Shown: positions 45,352 through 62,561, counted from the stretch's first letter. The stretch: 64,000 bases of DNA from Candidatus Chlorohelix allophototropha (GCF_030389965.1 NZ_CP128399.1:2036934-2100933); one strand, 5' to 3'. Made by a program: numbers and translations. The notes: a model not told the origin generated them from the sequence alone.

Positions 45352-48300
45352 TTGAGTAGCTCTAAAATGTCCTTGCCTTTAAGTGGGTTAAGTAAACGGA
45401 AATGGTATATTGCAGGAGCGTTAGCTGTCGCCAGCCTCGTCAGCATTTTAATCATTACGTTAGCAGCCACTCTTTTCAAAGTTCCTGAAGTAATTGCAGC
45501 GCCTAGCGTTTCCTCAACCGCTAATCTAGTACTTGGTCAGACTGATTTTACTACCAGCAATCTTCTTAGCGCAGCGGGCATCTCCTCTCCCAGCGGACTC
45601 GTAATTGACACTCCCCACCACCGTCTATTTATTTCTGATACAGGCAATAATCGGGTTTTGGGTTGGAATATAAGCACTCCTATAGTAAGCGGCCGCATGG
45701 CAGATATTGTGCTTGGGCAAGCTAATTTTAGAAATAACCTTGCTCCTGCCCCAACTTCCTCAAGTATGAATGCCCCAACTGCGCTGGCGCTGGATTCATC
45801 CGGCAATCTCTATGTGGCGGATAGCGGAAATAACCGAGTTCTGGTATTTGCCTATAACAGTACATTTTCATCATATACCGGTAAAGCCGCCGGTTATGTA
45901 CTAGGGCAAGGCGGCAGTTTTATCACCAAAGGTAGTGGCGCAACTGCCGATAATTTCTCCAATCCGAATGGGGTAGCAGTCGATTCGTCAGGGCATCTTT
46001 TTATAGCTGACTCAAGCAATAACCGTGTTCTGGAATATGATACCCCTTTGGTAGCTAGTCCTGCCGCCGACCGTGTTATTGGACAATCAGATCTTACTTC
46101 TAATTCAGCAAATCAAAGTGCTACTCCCGGAATAAATACTTTATCAAATCCGCGCGGTCTAGCTGTTAACGGTTCAGGCGTTTTGGCAGTTGCCGATAGC
46201 GATAATAACAGGATTTTACTTTATACCAGTCCTCTTTCAGCAACCTATAATCTCTCAGCTAATAATGTATTTGGTCAAGGAGGTTATTTTACCTCCAACT
46301 CTGCAACTAATCCCCCTACTAATAAGAGTTTAAACAGTCCTAACAGTGTTGCGTTTGATGCTAATACTCCTCAGAATTTGTATGTGGCAGATAAATTGAA
46401 CCACCGCGTTTTAAAATTTAATAGCCCCTTCGCTGGCGACTCTCAAGCTAGTTTGGTTTTCGGGCAACAAGGAAGCTTTACTACCAAGACTTCCGGCACT
46501 GCAAATGATAGTATTTGGGGACCGCAAGATGTAAAAGTTGATGCTTCAGGCAACTTGTTTGTGATAGATACGGTAAATAATCGGATGCTGGAATATACCA
46601 GTCCCTCAACTGTACCGCCTGCTGCTGATTTTGTACTCGGTCAAACCACTTTTACATCTGGGGGTGCTAATGCACTTGCAGACTCTGCTATGCTAAAAAC
46701 CCCCGGTGGCGTAGTTTATGACAAAGTACGAAATCGCCTCTATGTAGCCGATACCGCAAATCACCGGGTGCTGGGCTGGAACTCAAGTTCACTGGCAAAT
46801 AATAACGCGCCTGCCGATATTGTAATCGGTCAGCCTAATTTTTGGAGCGTAGCTATGCCAGACCCTCCAACCGCCTCCTCCTTGAGTTTACCTAAGGGTC
46901 TTGCGGTAGATGTCGATGGCAACCTCTACGTAGCTGACAGCGGTAATAATAGAGTAGTGCTCTATCTGAATCCCTTTGCTACCGATACTATAGCCGATCG
47001 TGTCTTTGGACAACCGGACTTGACAACTTATAATGATAACTGGACACCCTCTCAAACTACTTTACGTAATCCGGGTTGGGTAGCTGTAGATTCTAGTGTA
47101 AACCCAAACCGTCTCTACATTTCTGATACCAAAAATCAACGGGTTTTAGCTTATCCTACTCCTAAGGTAAGCTCTGTTCCAAGTCTGGTAATAGGAAAAA
47201 CCAGTTTTATTGATGCACCAATTCAATATTCTGACCCAAGCACTTCATCTAATACCTTTGAAACCAGCGGTATTGTGGTTGATGGGAAAGGTAACCTCTA
47301 TGTAAATGATTATTATCGCCATCGCACTCTATTCTTCCCCACTCCTTTTGACTCAGGAGGAACAACCGCTACCAAAGTTTTGGGTCAACCTGATATGGTC
47401 TCTGCCACTGATTACCCGCTTAATGCGTATGCCGATACTATGTATTACCAACGCGGTATAGCTATTGATCCCAATGGTAATCTTTTTATCGCCGATAGCG
47501 GTAATGCGCGCGTACTGTATTGGAGTTACAAAGGCTCTGTGATTCCAGCTACCAATGGGCAAGCCGCCGATGGGGTTTTGGGACAATCAGATCTTACTTC
47601 CAAATCAGCAGGCTTGAGCAACAGTAAGTTTGGTCTGACTGATAAATTAACCAATGCTATGGAAGGTCTTGCAACCGACGCTTACGGTAGGTTGTATGTT
47701 GTGGATAGAAGCAATAATCGGGTATTGCGCTTTAGCACTAATCCGCCAAGCGATGTAAAATTTACGAGCCACCCCACCACAGTTCCTGCCGATGTTTATT
47801 CGACCGCAATACATGTTCAGTTGGTTGATGCTAATGGCAATCGGATGGTAAGTGATACCGATAGTATCGTTAATCTTACCAGTTCAAGTGGTACCGGTTC
47901 TTTCTTCACCCTTGCTAATGGTAGTTATTCTAGCATAGCCTCTGGCGCAGCCACCATTCCGGCGGGCACTGTCGGAATAGATGTTTATTATAAAGATTCC
48001 ACTGCAAATGCTTCTGCTTATACCCTGACAGCAAAGCTCGGTAGTAGTACCGGAGATACTTTTTTAATGACGGTAAATGAAACACCGAAAACCTTAGTAT
48101 ATAAAAATACAGATGATGGTGCTAAAGGAACTTTCTCATACGCAATTGCTAACGCCAACTCCGGTGATACCATAACTTTTAGGCTTGAGGCTAACCAGCC
48201 GATTACATTTGTGTCCGGCAGTACTCTGCCTGTAATCAATAAGGAGCTTAAAATTGGAGAGTTAACCGATTGTATAAACGGGCCTAGTATTGTTATTGAC

Positions 48301-48465
48301 GGTACAAACTTGACGAGTCATGCTCTGAGCACCCAGTATAGGCTGCAAATAATTGGAGTGAAGTTCAAAAAAATGAAGCTGGTGACTAATACCTTTGTAA
48401 ATTCGGGTGGAACATTTGAAAACATATTCAAATGTACTTCATTTGATAATAGCAGTAGTAGCTAG
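45352..48465 (+). CDS. Secreted NHL-repeat beta-propeller protein
   Basis: A 1037-residue exported protein. An N-terminal membrane or signal helix (about 14-40) precedes twelve repeats of about 60-70 residues. Each has a NHL core such as GNLYVADSGNNRVL and a VLGQxDFT-type turn, consistent with two six-bladed propellers (inference). After about residue 800 a Big-like strand domain follows (FTSHPTTVPADVYSTAIHVQLVDANGNR), then a final domain with VIDGTNLTSH typical of parallel-helix or anchor modules. The start is a TTG at 45352 after a GGGGGG tract. ATG at 45367 is an alternative. NHL propellers bind proteins or sugars. Target unknown. Confidence 0.82.
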   Translation: MSSSKMSLPLSGLSKRKWYIAGALAVASLVSILIITLAATLFKVPEVIAAPSVSSTANLVLGQTDFTTSNLLSAAGISSPSGLVIDTPHHRLFISDTGNNRVLGWNISTPIVSGRMADIVLGQANFRNNLAPAPTSSSMNAPTALALDSSGNLYVADSGNNRVLVFAYNSTFSSYTGKAAGYVLGQGGSFITKGSGATADNFSNPNGVAVDSSGHLFIADSSNNRVLEYDTPLVASPAADRVIGQSDLTSNSANQSATPGINTLSNPRGLAVNGSGVLAVADSDNNRILLYTSPLSATYNLSANNVFGQGGYFTSNSATNPPTNKSLNSPNSVAFDANTPQNLYVADKLNHRVLKFNSPFAGDSQASLVFGQQGSFTTKTSGTANDSIWGPQDVKVDASGNLFVIDTVNNRMLEYTSPSTVPPAADFVLGQTTFTSGGANALADSAMLKTPGGVVYDKVRNRLYVADTANHRVLGWNSSSLANNNAPADIVIGQPNFWSVAMPDPPTASSLSLPKGLAVDVDGNLYVADSGNNRVVLYLNPFATDTIADRVFGQPDLTTYNDNWTPSQTTLRNPGWVAVDSSVNPNRLYISDTKNQRVLAYPTPKVSSVPSLVIGKTSFIDAPIQYSDPSTSSNTFETSGIVVDGKGNLYVNDYYRHRTLFFPTPFDSGGTTATKVLGQPDMVSATDYPLNAYADTMYYQRGIAIDPNGNLFIADSGNARVLYWSYKGSVIPATNGQAADGVLGQSDLTSKSAGLSNSKFGLTDKLTNAMEGLATDAYGRLYVVDRSNNRVLRFSTNPPSDVKFTSHPTTVPADVYSTAIHVQLVDANGNRMVSDTDSIVNLTSSSGTGSFFTLANGSYSSIASGAATIPAGTVGIDVYYKDSTANASAYTLTAKLGSSTGDTFLMTVNETPKTLVYKNTDDGAKGTFSYAIANANSGDTITFRLEANQPITFVSGSTLPVINKELKIGELTDCINGPSIVIDGTNLTSHALSTQYRLQIIGVKFKKMKLVTNTFVNSGGTFENIFKCTSFDNSSSS

Positions 48466-53514: not shown

Positions 53515-54522
53515 TTGCCGGATTTTAACCAACATAATTATCTGACCGCATATAAAGGCAGTAAAGTTCTCCTTACCGGGGGAGCGGGATTTCTTGGTTC
53601 AAACATGGCGCACCGCTTGGTGGAAATCGGAGCGTATGTAACCTTAGTTGATTCGATGATCCCAACCTATGGTGGGAATCTGTTTAATCTGAAAGATATT
53701 ATCAGTAAGATTCACTTTAATATCTCGGATGTGCGCGATCAAAATTCCATGTCCTATTTGGTAAATGATATTGACTATATTTTTAATTTAGCAGGTCAGA
53801 TTAGTCACCTCGATAGTATGTCTGACCCCTTTACCGATTTGGAAATAAATTGTCGCAGTCAGTTAGCTCTACTAGAAACTTGCCGCAAGATAAATCCCAC
53901 CGTTAAAATAGTGTATGCGGGAACACGGCAGATTTATGGCAATCCAGATTATCTGCCGGTAGATGAAAATCATTTAGTTCGTCCTGTGGATGTAAATGGG
54001 ATTAATAAAGCAGCAGGTGAGCGTTATCACTTGTTGTACCATAGCGTTTATGGGATGCGGACTGCCTCTCTACGCCTGACCAATTGCTATGGTCCCCGGC
54101 AGTGGATGAAAGATAATCGCTTGACCAGTCAGGGCTGGTTACTCCGATTGATACTGGAAAATAAGGAAACCCAGTTATTCGGAGATGGTTCTCAGCTTCG
54201 AGATTTGAATTATGTGGATGATGTGGTTGATGCTTTCTTAAGAGTCGGTGCGATAGAAGCAAGTAACGGTCATTTTTTTAATCTGGGTGGTGCCCCCTAC
54301 TCTTTGCTGCAACAAGTAGAAACTATGATTGAGTTAGCAAAACGGGGCAGTTATCGGCTTGTACCTTGGCCGCCTGCGAAAAAAGCTATCTCGATTGGAG
54401 ATTATTATGGCGACTATCGTAAAATAAAAGCAATGCTCGGTTGGGAACCCACTATCGATTTGCGTACCGGACTGAAGCACACTATAGAATATTATGATAA
54501 ATACAAGGAATATTATTTTTAA
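53515..54522 (+). CDS. NAD-dependent epimerase/dehydratase (extended SDR)
   Basis: A 335-residue sugar-nucleotide enzyme. The NAD motif is TGGAGFLGSN (21-30), with Asp45-Ser after beta-2. IFNLAGQISH and AGTRQIYG follow. At the catalytic YxxxK position the sequence is N161-G-I-N-K165, so the usual Tyr is Asn while the Lys is kept. Product specificity is uncertain, and either a changed mechanism or a binding role is possible. A TTG at 53515 follows AAAGGGG by seven bases. The next gene, 23 bases on, is a DegT aminotransferase, suggesting amino-sugar synthesis. Confidence 0.84.
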   Translation: MPDFNQHNYLTAYKGSKVLLTGGAGFLGSNMAHRLVEIGAYVTLVDSMIPTYGGNLFNLKDIISKIHFNISDVRDQNSMSYLVNDIDYIFNLAGQISHLDSMSDPFTDLEINCRSQLALLETCRKINPTVKIVYAGTRQIYGNPDYLPVDENHLVRPVDVNGINKAAGERYHLLYHSVYGMRTASLRLTNCYGPRQWMKDNRLTSQGWLLRLILENKETQLFGDGSQLRDLNYVDDVVDAFLRVGAIEASNGHFFNLGGAPYSLLQQVETMIELAKRGSYRLVPWPPAKKAISIGDYYGDYRKIKAMLGWEPTIDLRTGLKHTIEYYDKYKEYYF

Positions 54523-54545: not shown

Positions 54546-55670
54546 TTGGCTAATGTTGTAGGTAACATTCCAATATTTGAAACAAAAAGCCAGTATAACC
54601 TTTTGCGGAAGGAAATCGATACTGCAATCGAGCGGGTTTTAGAGCGCAGCTTTTTTGTTTTAGGCGAAGAGTGTAGCGCATTTGAAAAAGAATTTGCTGA
54701 ATACCTTGGGGTAAAGCACGTATTCGGCGTTGCGAACGGTACAGATGCAATTCAGCTTGCCTTGATGGCTTGTGGCGTTGGTAGCGGTGATGAGGTAATT
54801 ACCACCCCACAGACCGCCCTGTTTACTCTGCTGGCAATATCGGCTACCGGCGCAAAGCCGGTGCTGGTTGATATTGACCCTGATACAGGTTTGATAAATC
54901 CCGAATTAATCGAAGCTGCTATAACCCATCGCACGAAAGCCATCGTGCCGGTTCATTTGTACGGACAGTCCGCCGATCTCGATCCCATTGTGCAAATTGC
55001 AAATAACTATAGTCTCTTTATTGTTGAAGATAGCTGTCAGGCACACGGCACAACTTATAAAGGGAAATATACTGGCACAATTGGGCATGTCGGAACTTAT
55101 AGTTTTTATCCTTCCAAGAATCTCGGCTGTTATGGTGATGGTGGCGCAGTTGTTACTAATGACTCGGAAATAGCCGATAGGTTGGTGCGTTTACGCAATG
55201 GGGGACAGCGCGAGCGCTATAACCATGAACTTATGGGTTTGAATAGTCGTTTGGATGAAATACAAGCGGCGATTTTGAGGGTGAAATTGCCTCATTTGAA
55301 GGCTTGGAACCTGGCACGGCGTGAGAGAGCCGCTCTTTATAACCGCCTTCTGGAAGGATTGCCCCTAGAAACCCCGCTCGAAAAAGGTTATGGGCAACAT
55401 ATCTATCATTTGTATGTATTAAAATTGTCATCTACTATTGTAAGAAATACATTTCAAATTTATCTAAAAGAACTTGGAATTGGCACAGGCATACACTATC
55501 CAATTCCGGCACACTTACAAATAGCCTATGAGTGGCTGGGTTTGGGTAAAGGCAGTTTACCGCAGGTTGAAGATACGGCTGACCGGATAATAAGCTTACC
55601 TATTTTCCCCGAATTGCCCCTTGAGCATGTAGAGTACATCGCCGAAAGCATTCAAAACTTCCCCTTTTAA
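54546..55670 (+). CDS. DegT/DnrJ/EryC1/StrS sugar aminotransferase
   Basis: A 374-residue PLP enzyme that converts keto-sugar nucleotides to amino sugars. It has GVANGTDAIQLALMACGVGSGDEVITTPQT and VEDSCQAHGTTYKGK, the PLP lysine is in SFYPSKNLGCYGDGGAVVT, and NSRLDEIQAAILRVKL follows. The start is a TTG with GAGGAG eight bases upstream. It lies directly after the SDR gene and probably uses its product, likely for a surface glycan. Nucleotide and sugar identity are unknown. Confidence 0.9.
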   Translation: MANVVGNIPIFETKSQYNLLRKEIDTAIERVLERSFFVLGEECSAFEKEFAEYLGVKHVFGVANGTDAIQLALMACGVGSGDEVITTPQTALFTLLAISATGAKPVLVDIDPDTGLINPELIEAAITHRTKAIVPVHLYGQSADLDPIVQIANNYSLFIVEDSCQAHGTTYKGKYTGTIGHVGTYSFYPSKNLGCYGDGGAVVTNDSEIADRLVRLRNGGQRERYNHELMGLNSRLDEIQAAILRVKLPHLKAWNLARRERAALYNRLLEGLPLETPLEKGYGQHIYHLYVLKLSSTIVRNTFQIYLKELGIGTGIHYPIPAHLQIAYEWLGLGKGSLPQVEDTADRIISLPIFPELPLEHVEYIAESIQNFPF

Positions 55671-55936: not shown

Positions 55937-56977
55937 AGGAGACACGTCCGAAATGAATAGCCTAAGAATTGCCACTATCTCTAAACCTACGCCCGAACAA
56001 TGGGAAAGTATCGAAAACAACTGTGACTATGCTACTTTCTATCAAACCCATATGTGGCATAATGTACTCTGTTCAAATCCTAACCCCTATCGTGACAATC
56101 AAATTCCCGAAGATGCTTCTCAACTCATTCGCTTTAGCGATGGAGTAGAAATGCTGCTGCCTCTGGTTAGATACAAAAAGCTCAAAGGCATTTTTCACAT
56201 GTATTCTATGTCACCAGATAATGTCAATAGTAGTTTTCTGAGCAAGGACGAGATAACAGCCGAACACGAACAGGTATTGGTTCAGCATCTACGCCGCTAT
56301 AACCTCTCTTGGCGGCAGAACCCGTTCAAACCCTTGTCATTCTATTCTGGCTTTGATTGTGAGGAAGACAACATTTGGGTATTAGATATGCGTGGAGGGG
56401 TTGAAGAGCTTAGGAAAAGGTGGCAAACATCTCACAAAGATTTTCTAAAGCATGCGCGCCAAGCTTCCAACCGAGGTGTTACAGTAGGTAAAGCCGAAAC
56501 ACTAGAGCAATGGCGAGAGTTCTATGAGGTGTATCTGGAATCTACAAAACGCTGGGATTATCCCAAGATATACTCTTGGTCTGTATTTGAAGCATTTTAC
56601 AATCAAGCTTCTGATAAAGTTCAGTTATGGGCAGCTTGGGCGGATGGCAAAATAATAGCAGGACAAATAGTCTTTTACCATAGTCGTACTGTTACTGCCT
56701 GGCTTAAAGGTGGGTTAAAGGAATATTTTCATCTCAAAGCCCCCAAGTATCTCGACCTACAACATTTAGAGTATTACGCCCAAGAAGGCTATTGGTGGTA
56801 TGACATGGGTAGTGCAATCGACCCAGGTATTGCTGAGTATAAGGCTCGTACAGGGTGCGAGAAAATGGAAGGTGGATACCTAACCCATAAGAACCCCTCG
56901 TTGAAGGCATATGAGCGAGTACGGTGGGAATCAATTAGCAGATTACAACCCTTGAAAGGGCGTTTGCAGAAAGCTAT
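55937..56977 (+). repeat. Direct duplication, copy 1 of 2 (FemAB gene)
   Basis: This 1041-base stretch recurs at 57097-58137, offset by exactly 1160 bases with no net insertion or deletion. The copies start at the AGGAGA ribosome site and end eight bases inside a shared AAGCTAT near each gene's end. Long runs are almost identical (56241-56419 has one difference, 56498-56662 none). Differences concentrate in a few blocks. Confidence 0.9.
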
Positions 56978-57014
56978 TCCTGGTTACAAAAAATTAATCG
57001 GAGTTGGGTCATGA
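55953..57014 (+). CDS. FemAB-like aminoacyl/peptidyl transferase, paralogue 1
   Basis: A 353-residue protein of the FemAB/GNAT_6 fold, two tandem GNAT-like domains. In the family, members attach amino acids to peptidoglycan cross-bridges or acyl groups to surface glycans. Conserved family features are CDYATFYQTHMWHNVL (N-domain), the WREFYEVYLESTKRWDYP helix, LWAAWADGKIIAGQIVFYH and GYWWYDMGSAIDPGIAEYK. I start at ATG 55953, after AGGAGACAC, because paralogue 3 starts at the same residue. An ATG 75 bases upstream is possible. It precedes a near-copy by about 100 bases. Confidence 0.78.
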   Translation: MNSLRIATISKPTPEQWESIENNCDYATFYQTHMWHNVLCSNPNPYRDNQIPEDASQLIRFSDGVEMLLPLVRYKKLKGIFHMYSMSPDNVNSSFLSKDEITAEHEQVLVQHLRRYNLSWRQNPFKPLSFYSGFDCEEDNIWVLDMRGGVEELRKRWQTSHKDFLKHARQASNRGVTVGKAETLEQWREFYEVYLESTKRWDYPKIYSWSVFEAFYNQASDKVQLWAAWADGKIIAGQIVFYHSRTVTAWLKGGLKEYFHLKAPKYLDLQHLEYYAQEGYWWYDMGSAIDPGIAEYKARTGCEKMEGGYLTHKNPSLKAYERVRWESISRLQPLKGRLQKAIPGYKKLIGVGS

Positions 57015-57096
57015 CTACACTTTTGAGGATAACAACACAGCTCAGCAAGTTCAATGCTAAGAAGAGTTTATACAAGTTAAGGTCATATACCACTCT

Positions 57097-58137
57097 AGGA
57101 GACACGTCCGAAATGAATAGCCTAAGAATTGCCACTATCTCTAAACCTACGCCCGAACAATGGGAAAGTATCGAAAACAACTGTGACTATGCTACTTTCT
57201 ATCAAACCCATATGTGGCATAATGTACTCTGTTCAAATCCTAACCCCTATTGTGACAATCAAATTCCCGAAGATGTTTCTCAACTCATTCGCTTTAGCGA
57301 TGGAGTAGAAATGTTGCTACCTCTGGTCAGATATAAAAAGCTCAAAGGCATTTTCCACCTGTATTCTATGTCACCAGATAATAAATATGGTAATTTTCTA
57401 AGCAAGGACGAGATAACAGCCGAACACGAACAGGTATTGGTTCAGCATCTACGCCACTATAACCTCTCTTGGCGGCAGAACCCGTTCAAACCCTTGTCAT
57501 TCTATTCTGGCTTTGATTGTGAGGAAGACAACATTTGGGTATTAGATATGCGTGGAGGGGTTGAAGAGCTTAGGAAAAAGTGGGAAACATCTCACAAGGG
57601 TTTTTTGAGGCATGCACGCCAATCCCCCAAACTTGGTGTTACAGTAGGTAAAGCCGAGACACTAGAGCAATGGCGAGAGTTCTATGAGGTGTATCTGGAA
57701 TCTACAAAACGCTGGGATTATCCCAAGATATACTCTTGGTCTGTATTTGAAGCATTTTACAATCAAGCTTCTGATAAAGTTCAGTTATGGGCAGCTTGGG
57801 CGGATGGCAAAATAATAGCAGGAAATATTGTTTTTTGCCATAACCATACTGTTACTGGATGGATTCACGGTTCATTGAAGGAATATTTTCATCTCAAAGC
57901 CCCCAAGTATCTCGACTTACAACATTTAGAGTATTACGCCCAAGAAGGCTATTGGTGGTATGACATGGGTAGTGCAATCGACCCAGGTATAGTTGAGTAT
58001 AAGGCTCGTTTAGGGTGCGAGAAAATGGAAATTAGCCATCTGATCCATAAGAACCCTTCATTGAAGGCATATGAGCGAGTACGGTGGGAATCAATTAGCA
58101 GATTACAACCCTTGAAAGGGCGTTTGCAGAAAGCTAT
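57097..58137 (+). repeat. Direct duplication, copy 2 of 2 (FemAB gene)
   Basis: Second copy of the unit at 55937-56977. Divergent blocks correspond to copy-1 bases about 56420-56497, 56663-56727 and 56833-56900. In the second block this copy encodes residues (VFCHNHT) matching paralogue 3 rather than copy 1, so its history may include gene conversion. Confidence 0.9.
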
Positions 58138-58171
58138 GTCAGCCCGTCAGGAAAATAATGGTGGGAGCTAA
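57113..58171 (+). CDS. FemAB-like aminoacyl/peptidyl transferase, paralogue 2
   Basis: A 352-residue near-duplicate of paralogue 1 with the same domain plan and an identical N-terminal 35 residues. It differs mainly at KGFLRHARQSPKLGVT, NIVFCHNHTVTGWIHGS and IVEYKARLGCEKMEIS, regions that in FemAB proteins line the substrate groove (inference). The ATG 57113 start follows AGGAGACAC as in copy 1. An open frame extends upstream to 57011, overlapping copy 1's stop. A role in building a peptide bridge or modified surface polymer is plausible. Confidence 0.78.
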   Translation: MNSLRIATISKPTPEQWESIENNCDYATFYQTHMWHNVLCSNPNPYCDNQIPEDVSQLIRFSDGVEMLLPLVRYKKLKGIFHLYSMSPDNKYGNFLSKDEITAEHEQVLVQHLRHYNLSWRQNPFKPLSFYSGFDCEEDNIWVLDMRGGVEELRKKWETSHKGFLRHARQSPKLGVTVGKAETLEQWREFYEVYLESTKRWDYPKIYSWSVFEAFYNQASDKVQLWAAWADGKIIAGNIVFCHNHTVTGWIHGSLKEYFHLKAPKYLDLQHLEYYAQEGYWWYDMGSAIDPGIVEYKARLGCEKMEISHLIHKNPSLKAYERVRWESISRLQPLKGRLQKAMSARQENNGGS

Positions 58172-58310
58172 ATTCTAGCTCTCCTTTATGCTGATTTTAA
58201 ATTATCTTTGCTAACTTCAAGGCTTATGACAAAAAATCGCATAATATTACTCAATTTCTTTATTTATTTGTTCTAAAAAGTCAACTAATTGCCTAGGAGA
58301 TACATTCAAA

Positions 58311-59351
58311 ATGAGTGTTCTAAGAATTGACAGTATTTCCAAACCTACTCCCGAACAATGGGAAAGAATTGAAAACAAATGCGACTATGCTACTTTCTAC
58401 CAAACCCATATTTGGCATAAGGTTCTCTGTTCAAATCCCAATCCTCATTTTAATAATCTAGTTCCAGAAGATGCCTCTCAACTCCTTCGCTTTAGTGACG
58501 GAATAGAAATGCTACTGCCAATGGTGAAGTATAAAAAGTTCAAGGGAATTATTCACCTTTACTCAATGTCACCAGATGATAGACCCGCCAGTTTTCTAAG
58601 CGAACATGAGATAACAGCCGCACACGAGCAAGTACTGTTCCAGTATCTAACCCGCTATAATCTCTTATGGAGGCAAAGCCCCTTTCGCCCGGTGTCGTTG
58701 TACCCCGGTTTCGAGCGTGAAGATGAGAATAACCATAATATGATAATAGATATGCGGGGCGGTACCGAGTCGCTTAAAAAAAAGTTTAATAAAGAATTTC
58801 TCAGGCAGGCGCGCCAAGCGCCCAACCGTGGTGTGACTGTAAGCATCGCCACTACGCTGGAGGAATGGCGTGAGTTCTACCAATTGTATCTAGAATCTTC
58901 CAAACGTTGGGATGGTCCTATGCTATATTCTTGGTCTGTGCTTGAAGCGTTTCACAAGCAAGCCCCAGATAAAGCGCAGCTATGGGCAGCTTGGGCAGAT
59001 GGGAAAATGGTTGCGGGCAATATGGTCTTTTGCCATAATCATACTGCTACAGCATGGTTTAAGGGTGGTCTAAAAGAATATTTTAATCTCAAAGCCCCCA
59101 AATATCTTGACCTTCAGCGTATAGAATATTACGCCCAACAAGGCTATTGGTGGTTTGATATGGGTAGAGGCGGAGATGACCCGGGTGTTATAGACTATAA
59201 AATAGGTCTAGGCTGTGAGAATATGGATGGTAGTATATTGACCCATAAAAGCTCTTCTTTAAAAGCATACGAGCGCGTACGTTGGGAAACAGTTACCAAG
59301 CTAAGGACTGCAAAAGGACGTTTACAGAAAGCTATTCCTAGCCATCAATAA
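58311..59351 (+). CDS. FemAB-like aminoacyl/peptidyl transferase, paralogue 3
   Basis: A 346-residue family member, clearly related to paralogues 1 and 2 but diverged across its whole length. It begins MSVLRIDSISKPTPEQWERIENKCDYATFYQTHIWHKVL, after an AGGAGATAC ribosome site like theirs. NMVFCHNHTATAWFKGGLKEYF and GYWWFDMGRGGDDPGVIDYK are conserved. The three together look like an older tandem expansion with a later local copy. Confidence 0.8.
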   Translation: MSVLRIDSISKPTPEQWERIENKCDYATFYQTHIWHKVLCSNPNPHFNNLVPEDASQLLRFSDGIEMLLPMVKYKKFKGIIHLYSMSPDDRPASFLSEHEITAAHEQVLFQYLTRYNLLWRQSPFRPVSLYPGFEREDENNHNMIIDMRGGTESLKKKFNKEFLRQARQAPNRGVTVSIATTLEEWREFYQLYLESSKRWDGPMLYSWSVLEAFHKQAPDKAQLWAAWADGKMVAGNMVFCHNHTATAWFKGGLKEYFNLKAPKYLDLQRIEYYAQQGYWWFDMGRGGDDPGVIDYKIGLGCENMDGSILTHKSSSLKAYERVRWETVTKLRTAKGRLQKAIPSHQ

Positions 59352-59548
59352 ACAGCACAAAGTATGCAGCACATTTATAGTTCAAAGCAGCCTTGTTTCA
59401 TATTGTGAAGTTTAACTAGTTTTAGGAGAGTCGGTCTAATCCAATTTTTACAAGTCCAGATTAGCTTCAAAATATTTGGAAAACAATCAAGTTAGGCATG
59501 TAAATAATTGGCTCAAGTTTAGTACCGATTAGGAGTTAATAAAAATAG

Positions 59549-60646
59549 ATGAGCATTAAAATAGTTAAAGTAGAAGAAGCTACCCCACAGCAATGGGATC
59601 GAGTGACTAACCATTGTGAATATGCGACCTTTTTCCATACCAGAGAATGGTCTGAGATATGGAGAACGTATCAATCCGGGAAACTGCGTAATGCTACTAA
59701 ATATATAACATTTAATGATGGAACTGAAGTGCTTTACCCCATGATGGTACGAGATATCAGCTTTGGTTTGATTAAGCAATATCTATCTGCCCCTGAGTGG
59801 AAATATGGCGGATGGTTGAGCTTGAGTCACCTATCTGAGGCGCATCATAATGCTCTTTATGCTTATGCAACTAGTATGAACATACTCCTTCGGCAAAATC
59901 CTTTTGATCAAAGTTTTCCTACTAATAGTATTCCTTGGAATTTAACGGATTATACGCAAGTTATAGATTTGCGACCGGGCTTCGAATCAATTAAAGATTA
60001 CTGGTTTAGAGAACACCGATCCGCAATAAGAAATGCGGATCGTGCCAGAAAGGCTGGGGTAACTTTTGAAGAGGGTACTACTCTTGAAGACTGGCGAGAA
60101 TATTACAAGGTTTATGAAGCCGCAGTAGATCGTTGGGGTGATAATATACAAGGGGAAAAATTTGACTGGCGCTTGTACGATTCGATTTTGAAGAGCGGTA
60201 CTAAAAACGTAAAAGTATGGATAGTTAAGCTTGATGGTAAAATAATTGGTGGCGCTGTTAGATTTTATCATAACAAACATGTTGTATCATGGAACAAATC
60301 GGTTTTGCGGGATTATGCCAAAAGTTATGCCTCGAACTTGTTGGATTATGAATTAATCAAACAGAGTTGTGATGGCGGCTACTGGTGGTATGATTTAGAC
60401 ACAAGTGGGGGTATCGAAGGAGTAATAGCTTATAAAGCCAGTTTGGGTACAATTTCACTTAGCGCTAATATGTTATTTCACGATACTTCGATGAAACGGC
60501 TAGCAAAAACTAGCAGAACTGCTTTACTCTCAATGAGTCATAAACTGTCTAAAACTTTCCACAAACCGGAAGTTTTAACACCAAGCATAGATGCTGGATA
60601 TTCTGGAAAAGTTGAAGAGCAAGATCGGTTAGAAGTAACCCGATAA
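59549..60646 (+). CDS. FemAB-like aminoacyl/peptidyl transferase, paralogue 4
   Basis: A 365-residue, most diverged member of the array. It keeps CEYATFFHTREWSEIW, WREYYKVYEAAVDRWGDN, VWIVKLDGKIIGGAVRFYHNKHVVSWNK and GYWWYDLDTSGGIEGVIAYKASLG, the canonical FemAB/GNAT_6 landmarks. A 50-residue C-terminal tail is unique. AGGAG lies 13 bases before the ATG, a long spacing. The next gene is glmS, which makes glucosamine-6-phosphate for cell-wall precursors. Confidence 0.8.
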   Translation: MSIKIVKVEEATPQQWDRVTNHCEYATFFHTREWSEIWRTYQSGKLRNATKYITFNDGTEVLYPMMVRDISFGLIKQYLSAPEWKYGGWLSLSHLSEAHHNALYAYATSMNILLRQNPFDQSFPTNSIPWNLTDYTQVIDLRPGFESIKDYWFREHRSAIRNADRARKAGVTFEEGTTLEDWREYYKVYEAAVDRWGDNIQGEKFDWRLYDSILKSGTKNVKVWIVKLDGKIIGGAVRFYHNKHVVSWNKSVLRDYAKSYASNLLDYELIKQSCDGGYWWYDLDTSGGIEGVIAYKASLGTISLSANMLFHDTSMKRLAKTSRTALLSMSHKLSKTFHKPEVLTPSIDAGYSGKVEEQDRLEVTR

Positions 60647-60692: not shown

Positions 60693-62561
60693 GTGTGTGG
60701 AATTATCGGATACGTAGGTTCTAAACAAGCGTTGCCCGTTATAATTGAAGGGTTGCAACGTTTGGAATATCGTGGTTATGATTCTGCCGGTATCGCTTTA
60801 ATAAGTCCGGCAGGTAATATTGAAGTCAGAAGAGCCGTCGGCAAGCTACAAAACTTGGTTACTCAACTACAGGAGGAGCCAAAACCTCTTAAAGGTTCGG
60901 TTGGAATGGGGCATACTCGCTGGGCAACCCATGGCAAGCCAACCGAACTTAATGCCCACCCCCATCGCGGTCCCCAAAGTAGAGTTGTAGTTGTCCATAA
61001 TGGAATTATCGAAAACTATGTGCAACTGAAGCAAGAATTAGTGCAATCCGGTTATTCTTTTAATTACTCCAGTGAAACCGATACCGAGGTTATCGCCCAC
61101 CTACTAGAGAAATGTATGTTGCGTGAGGGTGATACTTTGGAGCAGGCTACCATAAAAACCCTGAACCGCCTAAAAGGAACAGCGGCAATTGTAGCAATCA
61201 GCCTCGATGACCCCGAAAAAATTGTAGCAGCACGTTTAAGTAACGCCGGTGCGGTGGTTATCGGCTACGGCGCTGAAGTGGAACACGAGATGTTTATTGC
61301 CAGCGATATACCGGCTATTTTGCCTCATACAAGGCGTATAACCTTCTTAGAGAGCAATGAAGTTGCGGTACTCAACACCGCTGGCGTAACATTTTTTAAC
61401 TCAAAAGGCGAAGTTATATCGAAAGAAATAGTTACCGTTAATATAGATGCTATAAGTGCTGCCAAAGGTGGCTACAAGCACTTTATGCAGAAAGAGATCT
61501 ACGACCAACCACAGGCGCTCAGTGACACTTTGTTAGGCAGGGTAGATTTAGAGAACGGTAATGTTAAGCTCGAAGATTTCAAGTTCAGCAAATCGGACAT
61601 TGCAGCGATTGAAAAAGTAACTCTGATAGGTTGCGGTACAAGCTGGCACGCTGGATTAGTAGCGAAATTCTGGATTGAAAGTCTCGCTGGTTTACCCTGT
61701 GATGTGGATTATGGCAGTGAATTTCGTTACCGTGACCCGATATTAACTCCTAACCATCTGCTGGTAGCAATTACGCAGTCCGGAGAGACGGTTGACACCC
61801 TTGCGGGAATAGAAGAAGCAAAACTCAAAAAGGCTAAGGTTGTTTCGGTAGTTAATGTAGTAGGTAGCCAAGCAGCGCGGGTAGCAGATGGCGTAATTTA
61901 TATGCACGCTGGTCCGGAGATCGGAGTCGCCAGCACCAAAGCTTTTATCACTTCGCTGGCTGATTTATTCTTATTGGCAGTATATTTGGGTAGAGAGCGT
62001 GGCAAACTTGGCGCCGACCGCGCGCAAAGCTTGCTCCAATCGTTGGTTGAGATTCCGAATCTCTTAGCCAATACGCTACTTGAAAACTCCATTTATGACC
62101 AGATTTCTAGAAAGTTTTATACTGCCAAAGACTTTCTATATCTCGGTAGGGGTATTAATTATCCGATTGCACTGGAAGGCGCACTCAAGCTTAAAGAGTT
62201 AAGCTATATCCATGCGGAAGGTTATCCTGCCGGAGAATTAAAGCACGGACCGATAGCGCTTATAGACGAGGGGTTGCCGGTAGTAGCAATTGTGGTAAAA
62301 GATGGGCTGTATGACAAGGTGGTTTCGGCGGTTGAGCAGGTAAAAGCCCGTGATGGCTTTGTACTGGCTATTGCGAGTGAAGGTGATGAACTGATAGCAG
62401 GTAAGGCAGACAAGGTTATTTACATACCTAATACTGACCCGCTTTTGATGCCCTTGCTCACAACTATACCGGTGCAACTGCTTAGCTACCATCTAGCTGA
62501 AATTCGTGGTTGCGATGTGGATCAACCGCGTAACCTAGCCAAATCTGTAACCGTAGAATAA
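60693..62561 (+). CDS. glmS: Glutamine-fructose-6-phosphate aminotransferase (isomerising)
   Basis: A 622-residue enzyme that makes glucosamine-6-phosphate from fructose-6-phosphate and glutamine, the entry step to UDP-GlcNAc. The N-terminal Cys nucleophile follows the initiator (MCGIIGYVG), and RLEYRGYDSAGIAL, TRWATHGKPTELNAHPH and HNGIIENY form the glutaminase. Two SIS domains follow (GCGTSWHAGLVAKFW and LYLGRGINYPIALEGALKLKELSYIHAEGYPAGELKHGP), ending PRNLAKSVTVE. The start is a GTG with AAGGAGAAG upstream. No glmS ribozyme is visible in the 46-base gap before it. A strong terminator ends the gene. Confidence 0.97.
   Translation: MCGIIGYVGSKQALPVIIEGLQRLEYRGYDSAGIALISPAGNIEVRRAVGKLQNLVTQLQEEPKPLKGSVGMGHTRWATHGKPTELNAHPHRGPQSRVVVVHNGIIENYVQLKQELVQSGYSFNYSSETDTEVIAHLLEKCMLREGDTLEQATIKTLNRLKGTAAIVAISLDDPEKIVAARLSNAGAVVIGYGAEVEHEMFIASDIPAILPHTRRITFLESNEVAVLNTAGVTFFNSKGEVISKEIVTVNIDAISAAKGGYKHFMQKEIYDQPQALSDTLLGRVDLENGNVKLEDFKFSKSDIAAIEKVTLIGCGTSWHAGLVAKFWIESLAGLPCDVDYGSEFRYRDPILTPNHLLVAITQSGETVDTLAGIEEAKLKKAKVVSVVNVVGSQAARVADGVIYMHAGPEIGVASTKAFITSLADLFLLAVYLGRERGKLGADRAQSLLQSLVEIPNLLANTLLENSIYDQISRKFYTAKDFLYLGRGINYPIALEGALKLKELSYIHAEGYPAGELKHGPIALIDEGLPVVAIVVKDGLYDKVVSAVEQVKARDGFVLAIASEGDELIAGKADKVIYIPNTDPLLMPLLTTIPVQLLSYHLAEIRGCDVDQPRNLAKSVTVE

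Follow-up and report, generated by a model that had tools for sequence, protein, structure and literature searches.

Four tandem genes (p1 to p4) of 'Candidatus Chlorohelix allophototropha', a photosynthetic lake bacterium, form an array of FemX-fold transferases in which two of the copies, p1 and p2, are nearly identical along most of their length and heavily changed in four short islands. With moderate confidence, we read this locus as an array that would aminoacylate an amino sugar made by the neighbouring DegT protein, p1 and p2 having been homogenised by gene conversion with the islands retained. The genes lie in a 64,000-nucleotide stretch of the genome (hereafter, the window), to which all coordinates refer. 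The strain, L227-S17, is a phototroph of the Chloroflexota that has been cultivated and that has a type I reaction centre; its genome, consisting of two chromosomes (2.96 and 2.45 Mb), a chromid and two plasmids, was closed with a combination of long and short reads (PMC10972752). Because the assembly is hybrid, collapse of a 1-kb repeat is unlikely, although polishing errors within the repeat are still possible.

As the initial annotation had described, the array sits between sugar-nucleotide genes and glmS, with an SDR epimerase and a DegT gene upstream and glmS downstream:

53515..54522, + strand, SDR-family NAD-dependent epimerase/dehydratase (Pfam Epimerase, 1.2e-42)
54546..55670, + strand, DegT/DnrJ/EryC1 sugar aminotransferase (Pfam, 3.2e-116), 23 bp after the epimerase gene
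55953..57014, + strand, p1, FemX-fold transferase without the YGG motif of the family
57113..58171, + strand, p2, FemX-fold transferase, AlphaFold model with a mean pLDDT of 95
58311..59351, + strand, p3, 67-69% identical to p1/p2 (dS about 1.15), without the YGG motif
59549..60646, + strand, p4, about 30% identical, on one branch with p1-p3 in the family tree (SH-aLRT 94)
60693..62561, + strand, glmS, an ORF of 622 aa lying 46 bp past p4, named from its sequence and not from a family scan

The DegT protein is PseC/ArnB-like and scored below the NCBIfam cut-offs, and glmS is 71-74% identical to its counterparts in the four same-family genomes. Since p1 starts 283 bp after DegT, a common operon is not required. 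Inspection by eye of the SDR gene revealed TRQIYG where 4,6-dehydratases have TDExYG, and NGINK in place of YxxxK, the catalytic Tyr being replaced by Asn; from its sequence, this gene may not encode a canonical dehydratase or epimerase. Further upstream of the locus, positions 45352-48465 encode a predicted protein of 1037 aa in which units of the form VLGQ...NRVL recur, much as in an NHL-repeat propeller.

All four paralogues matched Pfam Acetyltransf_6 (PF13480) at 50-60 bits against a cut-off of 22, in agreement with the FemAB-like label given initially; FemAB itself (PF02388) was above its gathering cut-off in p2 and p3 only, fell below it in p1, and gave no p4 match at E 0.001. The sole NCBIfam model matching p1-p4 was that of the XrtA/PEP-CTERM FemAB proteins (TIGR03019), with 28-46 bits, far under its 260-bit cut-off. 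The p1 and p2 genes probably start at 55953 and 57113, where an ATG follows GGAG in agreement with the p3 and p4 starts, rather than as longer ORFs. The longer p2 ORF begins at an ATGA (57011-57014) that overlaps the p1 stop; because both homology and the ribosome site point to 57113 as the start, this overlap is probably due to chance, coupled translation being the alternative.

An ungapped comparison at an offset of 1160 bp aligned p1 and p2 over 1041 bp with 63 mismatches and without indels. The alignment opens at the GGAG ribosome site and ends in the vicinity of codon 350, which bears out the direct repeat as first reported, ribosome site included. The units and changed blocks are the following:

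55937..56977, + strand, repeat unit in p1, homogenised, from the ribosome site to about codon 350 (1041 bp)
57097..58137, + strand, repeat unit in p2, homogenised, offset by 1160 from the p1 unit
56091-56117, minor changed block in p1, the fifth besides islands A-D
56154..56240, + strand, island A in p1 (residues 68-96; p2 counterpart 57314-57400), containing the YGG motif position
56418..56498, + strand, island B in p1 (residues 156-182; p2 57578-57658), helices where the chain joins the C-terminal domain
56664..56717, + strand, island C in p1 (residues 238-255; p2 57824-57877), a beta hairpin aligned with FemX Y254/Y256
56829..56900, + strand, island D in p1 (residues 293-316; p2 57989-58060), bracketing the catalytic Lys297 and the last strand

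The longest identical runs span 165 bp (56499-56663, one base away from the identical stretch originally placed at 56498-56662), 154 bp (55937-56090) and 122 bp (56297-56418). Heavily changed blocks had been noticed as well, and they are real, but there are four main ones plus a minor one instead of three. These five blocks, amounting to 107 codons, hold 61 of the 63 p1-p2 differences counted over core codons, with about 25 synonymous and 36 nonsynonymous changes, against 1 and 1 in the remaining 234 codons. On this finer alignment the divergence is patchy and not even, the changed codons being clustered beyond chance: by the sum-of-squared-gaps statistic, none of 20,000 shuffles reached the observed value. 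Furthermore, dS between p1 and p2 is 0.49 in the islands and 0.007 outside, a difference of about 70-fold that supports the gene conversion proposed at the outset, and dN/dS in the islands is 0.33.

As blocks chosen by eye make such a contrast between inside and outside circular, we redrew the islands using nonsynonymous changes alone; under this definition, synonymous changes were still in excess, with 12/75 island codons versus 6/215 elsewhere (P=2e-4). The same test applied to p1 or p2 against p3 gave no synonymous excess in the islands (P=0.88 and 0.76), and the islands are therefore not mutation hot spots. Given that synonymous changes cluster there between p1 and p2 but are even against p3, the islands represent remnants of an old divergence that has been erased from the rest of the repeat, most simply by gene conversion, which we infer to be the mechanism. 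The split between p1/p2 and p3 is older, with a dS of about 1.15 that, for p1, is similar inside and outside the islands. At informative sites, outgroup polarity was balanced (25 with p1=p3, 22 with p2=p3), so both copies have changed in the islands. Between the p1 and p2 spacers, homology beyond the ribosome site was not found, and the C-terminal tails are also unrelated; the lack of spacer similarity speaks against a simple tandem duplication of recent date. With an island dS of 0.49, the duplication is probably old and the homogenisation recent, and its initial description as recent is probably wrong. Thus, p1 and p2 would be fairly old duplicates (dS of about 0.5) in which repeated later gene conversion would have homogenised the coding region and the ribosome site, four short islands excepted.

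Regarding the enzymes themselves, searches of the PDB with single protein sequences gave no match, and a profile was needed; the family profile comprised 62 relatives, and residue counts were made over 62 family members, p1-p4 included. This profile retrieved FemX (E 4e-13) and the streptothricin aminoacyl-tRNA ligases (E 1e-15). The p2 model displays the tandem two-GNAT-domain fold and matched FemX, FemA, Sba18 and Sbb17 at Z 25-26 (FemX and FemA over 286-298 residues), with MprF-type proteins (Z 19) and single-GNAT enzymes (Z 14) well below. Lys297 and an aromatic residue at 296, the equivalent of FemX Phe304-Lys305, are present in 62/62 members; this pair was matched to the FK of Sba18 by profile alignment, and to FemX by motif because the FemX alignment stops before K305. 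Past strand 4 of the C-terminal domain, where the acetyl-CoA pyrophosphate loop (Q/RxxGxG/A) was looked for, 0/62 members have it. In FemX, whose comparison sequence was verified letter for letter against PDB 3GKR, K305 is catalytic and K36, R211 and Y215 contact the acceptor (PMC12945691, PMC4964394), and a role in tRNA binding has been suggested for Y254 (PMC4964394). FemX Y254 and Y256 fall opposite island C in the alignment, and island D brackets Lys297; these two islands may lie by the substrate groove to which the blocks were initially assigned. Within island A, the YGG motif is widely kept among p4 and the members outside the array (Y 50/59, G 57/59, G 53/59); at this position p4 has YGG, p2 YGN, p1 NSS and p3 PAS.

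By analogy with these enzymes, the donor would be an aminoacyl-tRNA, and the gene neighbourhood points to an amino sugar as acceptor; p1-p4 would then transfer an amino acid to the amine of the DegT-made amino sugar, which would belong to a surface polysaccharide. It is quite unlikely that p1-p4 are instead peptidoglycan cross-bridge aminoacyltransferases, true equivalents of FemX and FemA (1NE9, 4II9, 6SNR, 1LRZ). They share with these proteins the two-GNAT fold over about 290 residues at Z of about 25, among the best fold matches, together with the conserved catalytic Lys in its aromatic-Lys pair and the lack of the acetyl-CoA loop; however, the contacts to UDP-MurNAc-pentapeptide are not conserved in the alignment, the positions of K36, R211 and Y215 being L/W, Y/F and V/L in p1-p4 (at 15% identity these positions could shift), and the Chlorohelix genes adjoin a sugar aminotransferase and are linked to DegT and polysaccharide genes. 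Streptothrisamine contains an amino sugar. According to their PDB titles (9WQY, 9WQW, 9WQX), the streptothricin enzymes Sba18 and Sbb17 are aminoacyl-tRNA-dependent peptide synthases solved with this compound; they are the top Foldseek and profile match, yet they are only 14-16% identical, serve antibiotic biosynthesis, and are not tandem arrays in a surface-sugar locus. Likened by description, HfsK of the Caulobacter holdfast is a FemX-type two-GNAT protein linked to exopolysaccharide, differing in being under c-di-GMP control (PMC5362036).

Why the islands persist admits more than one answer. They were kept, or escaped conversion, probably for tuning substrate choice, a role suggested by the loss of a near-universal motif in p1, the alignment with the FemX active site, and the bracketed catalytic lysine. 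Islands that persist in the face of conversion are recognised as a mark of selection for different functions, to which a neutral alternative exists, as discussed by Willett for GOT1 of Tigriopus (PMC3728101); there, as in p1/p2, duplicates were homogenised with divergent peaks preserved, but that system is eukaryotic and rests on population data, whereas p1/p2 are known from one bacterial genome. In the neutral version, conversion acted wherever identity sufficed, and loosely constrained islands diverged first, with no role in substrate choice. We regard this as possible, if doubtful: the islands are more diverged from p3 at the protein level (pN 0.23, versus 0.13 outside) and, being less constrained in that comparison, may have diverged first and then resisted conversion, and conservation across the family is no higher at the changed positions, taken as a set, than at the unchanged ones (mean entropy 2.52 vs 2.54, P=0.55). 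However, island A covers the near-invariant Y92, G93 and G94, lost in p1, and islands C and D reach positions that correspond, by alignment, to the FemX active site. We infer selection acting on the islands and lean slightly towards a functional role over neutral escape; with an island dN/dS under 1, selection is not demonstrated.

The initial annotation had also attributed the blocks, as an alternative, to localised diversification, which is not supported, and had expected raised dN/dS or conversion tracts in them. Homogenised tracts such as conversion would leave were indeed found; dN/dS was not raised, its value of 0.33 leading us to reject positive selection inside the blocks, and synonymous sites differ there too. 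Recent targeted diversification or positive selection, with hypermutation or a diversity-generating retroelement as conceivable agents, would account for the tight clustering, but the synonymous changes in the same clusters largely refute it. Retroelement-style adenine mutagenesis was rejected because the mismatches are free of adenine bias; they comprise 40 transitions and 23 transversions. We consider this origin extremely improbable. A recent duplication, after which one copy would have received four short tracts from a diverged relative such as another strain or a lost paralogue, would explain why most of the repeat is near-identical, as after recent copying. It is nonetheless unlikely, as the polarity is balanced between p1 and p2, the spacers and tails are unlike those of a fresh 1160-bp tandem copy, and no donor is present in the genome, where six Acetyltransf_6 matches in total included no other that closely resembles p1-p3. 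In particular, the VFCHNHT motif had been seen to match between p2 and p3 rather than p1. The match holds, and further along the same block p1 equals p3 (A, K, G), but a tract copied from p3 does not follow: p2 and p3 differ throughout their DNA, the longest identical run over the gene being 17 bp (P=0.70), which rules out p3 as donor of this block, and no p3 donor tract was found in p1 or p2. VFCHNHT is best read, from the sequences, as an ancestral stretch retained in p2 and p3 and altered in p1.

Comparison with other genomes indicates that the array is carried by a single one among those compared. In four same-family genomes a p1-like gene was absent, with distant domain matches only; 400 genomes of the phylum contained no close relative of p1-p3 (best about 27% identity), and a first scan of the genome collection with the four paralogues gave no relative. 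In the nearest same-family genome (G002), orthologues of the epimerase (73%, adjacent to DegT) and of DegT (70%) lie in a Wzx/Wzy/EpsD-type exopolysaccharide cluster that has no FemX genes, with glmS elsewhere; hence, among the genomes compared, the array is particular to the Chlorohelix lineage. A pathway of the WlbA/WlbB type was also weighed for the DegT product and set aside, the neighbouring genes in G002 being of glycosyltransferase and O-acetyltransferase types. In the family tree, p1-p4 form one group (SH-aLRT 94) that is separate from the genes of Chloroflexales and adjoins Fibrobacterota; this placement may reflect transfer, although the branches are long. Chloroploca, Oscillochloris and their relatives carry FemX-like genes, often as tandem pairs, along with two DegT, epimerase, glycosyltransferase, deacetylase and hexapeptide acyltransferase genes. 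The tree separates the tandem pairs of Chloroflexales (L059, L061, L062, L063, L064, L071) into distinct duplications in Chloroflexus and in the Chloroploca/Oscillochloris group.

Among 63 independent loci with enough upstream sequence, picked by FemX sequence only, 19 had DegT directly upstream on the same strand, ending within 170 bp, and 11 more had it elsewhere in the locus; the other 33 gave no DegT match in the sequence covered. The 19 linked loci span Bacteroidota, Aminicenantes, Acidobacteria, Eisenbacteria, Rhodothermota, Chloroflexota and others. A FemX-like gene right behind DegT thus recurs across several phyla (loci L079-L145, e.g. L083, L085, L089, L091, L108, L123, L136), and our literature search found no description of a DegT-adjacent FemX-like amino-sugar enzyme. 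Together, the FemX fold, the catalytic lysine and the DegT linkage lend indirect support to the amino-acid decoration of a surface polymer first suggested for this locus, which is plausible, with genomic backing that extends beyond the window.

Tentatively, we propose that DegT-adjacent FemX-fold enzymes may constitute a family of amino-sugar aminoacyltransferases that is widespread but not yet described, and that the Chlorohelix islands may record residues governing the choice of acceptor or amino acid, kept by selection against ongoing conversion. If so, the four islands would provide a swap list of residues for substrate choice in FemX-type enzymes, and the DegT link would reveal a possible route by which amino acids are placed on surface sugars in several phyla.
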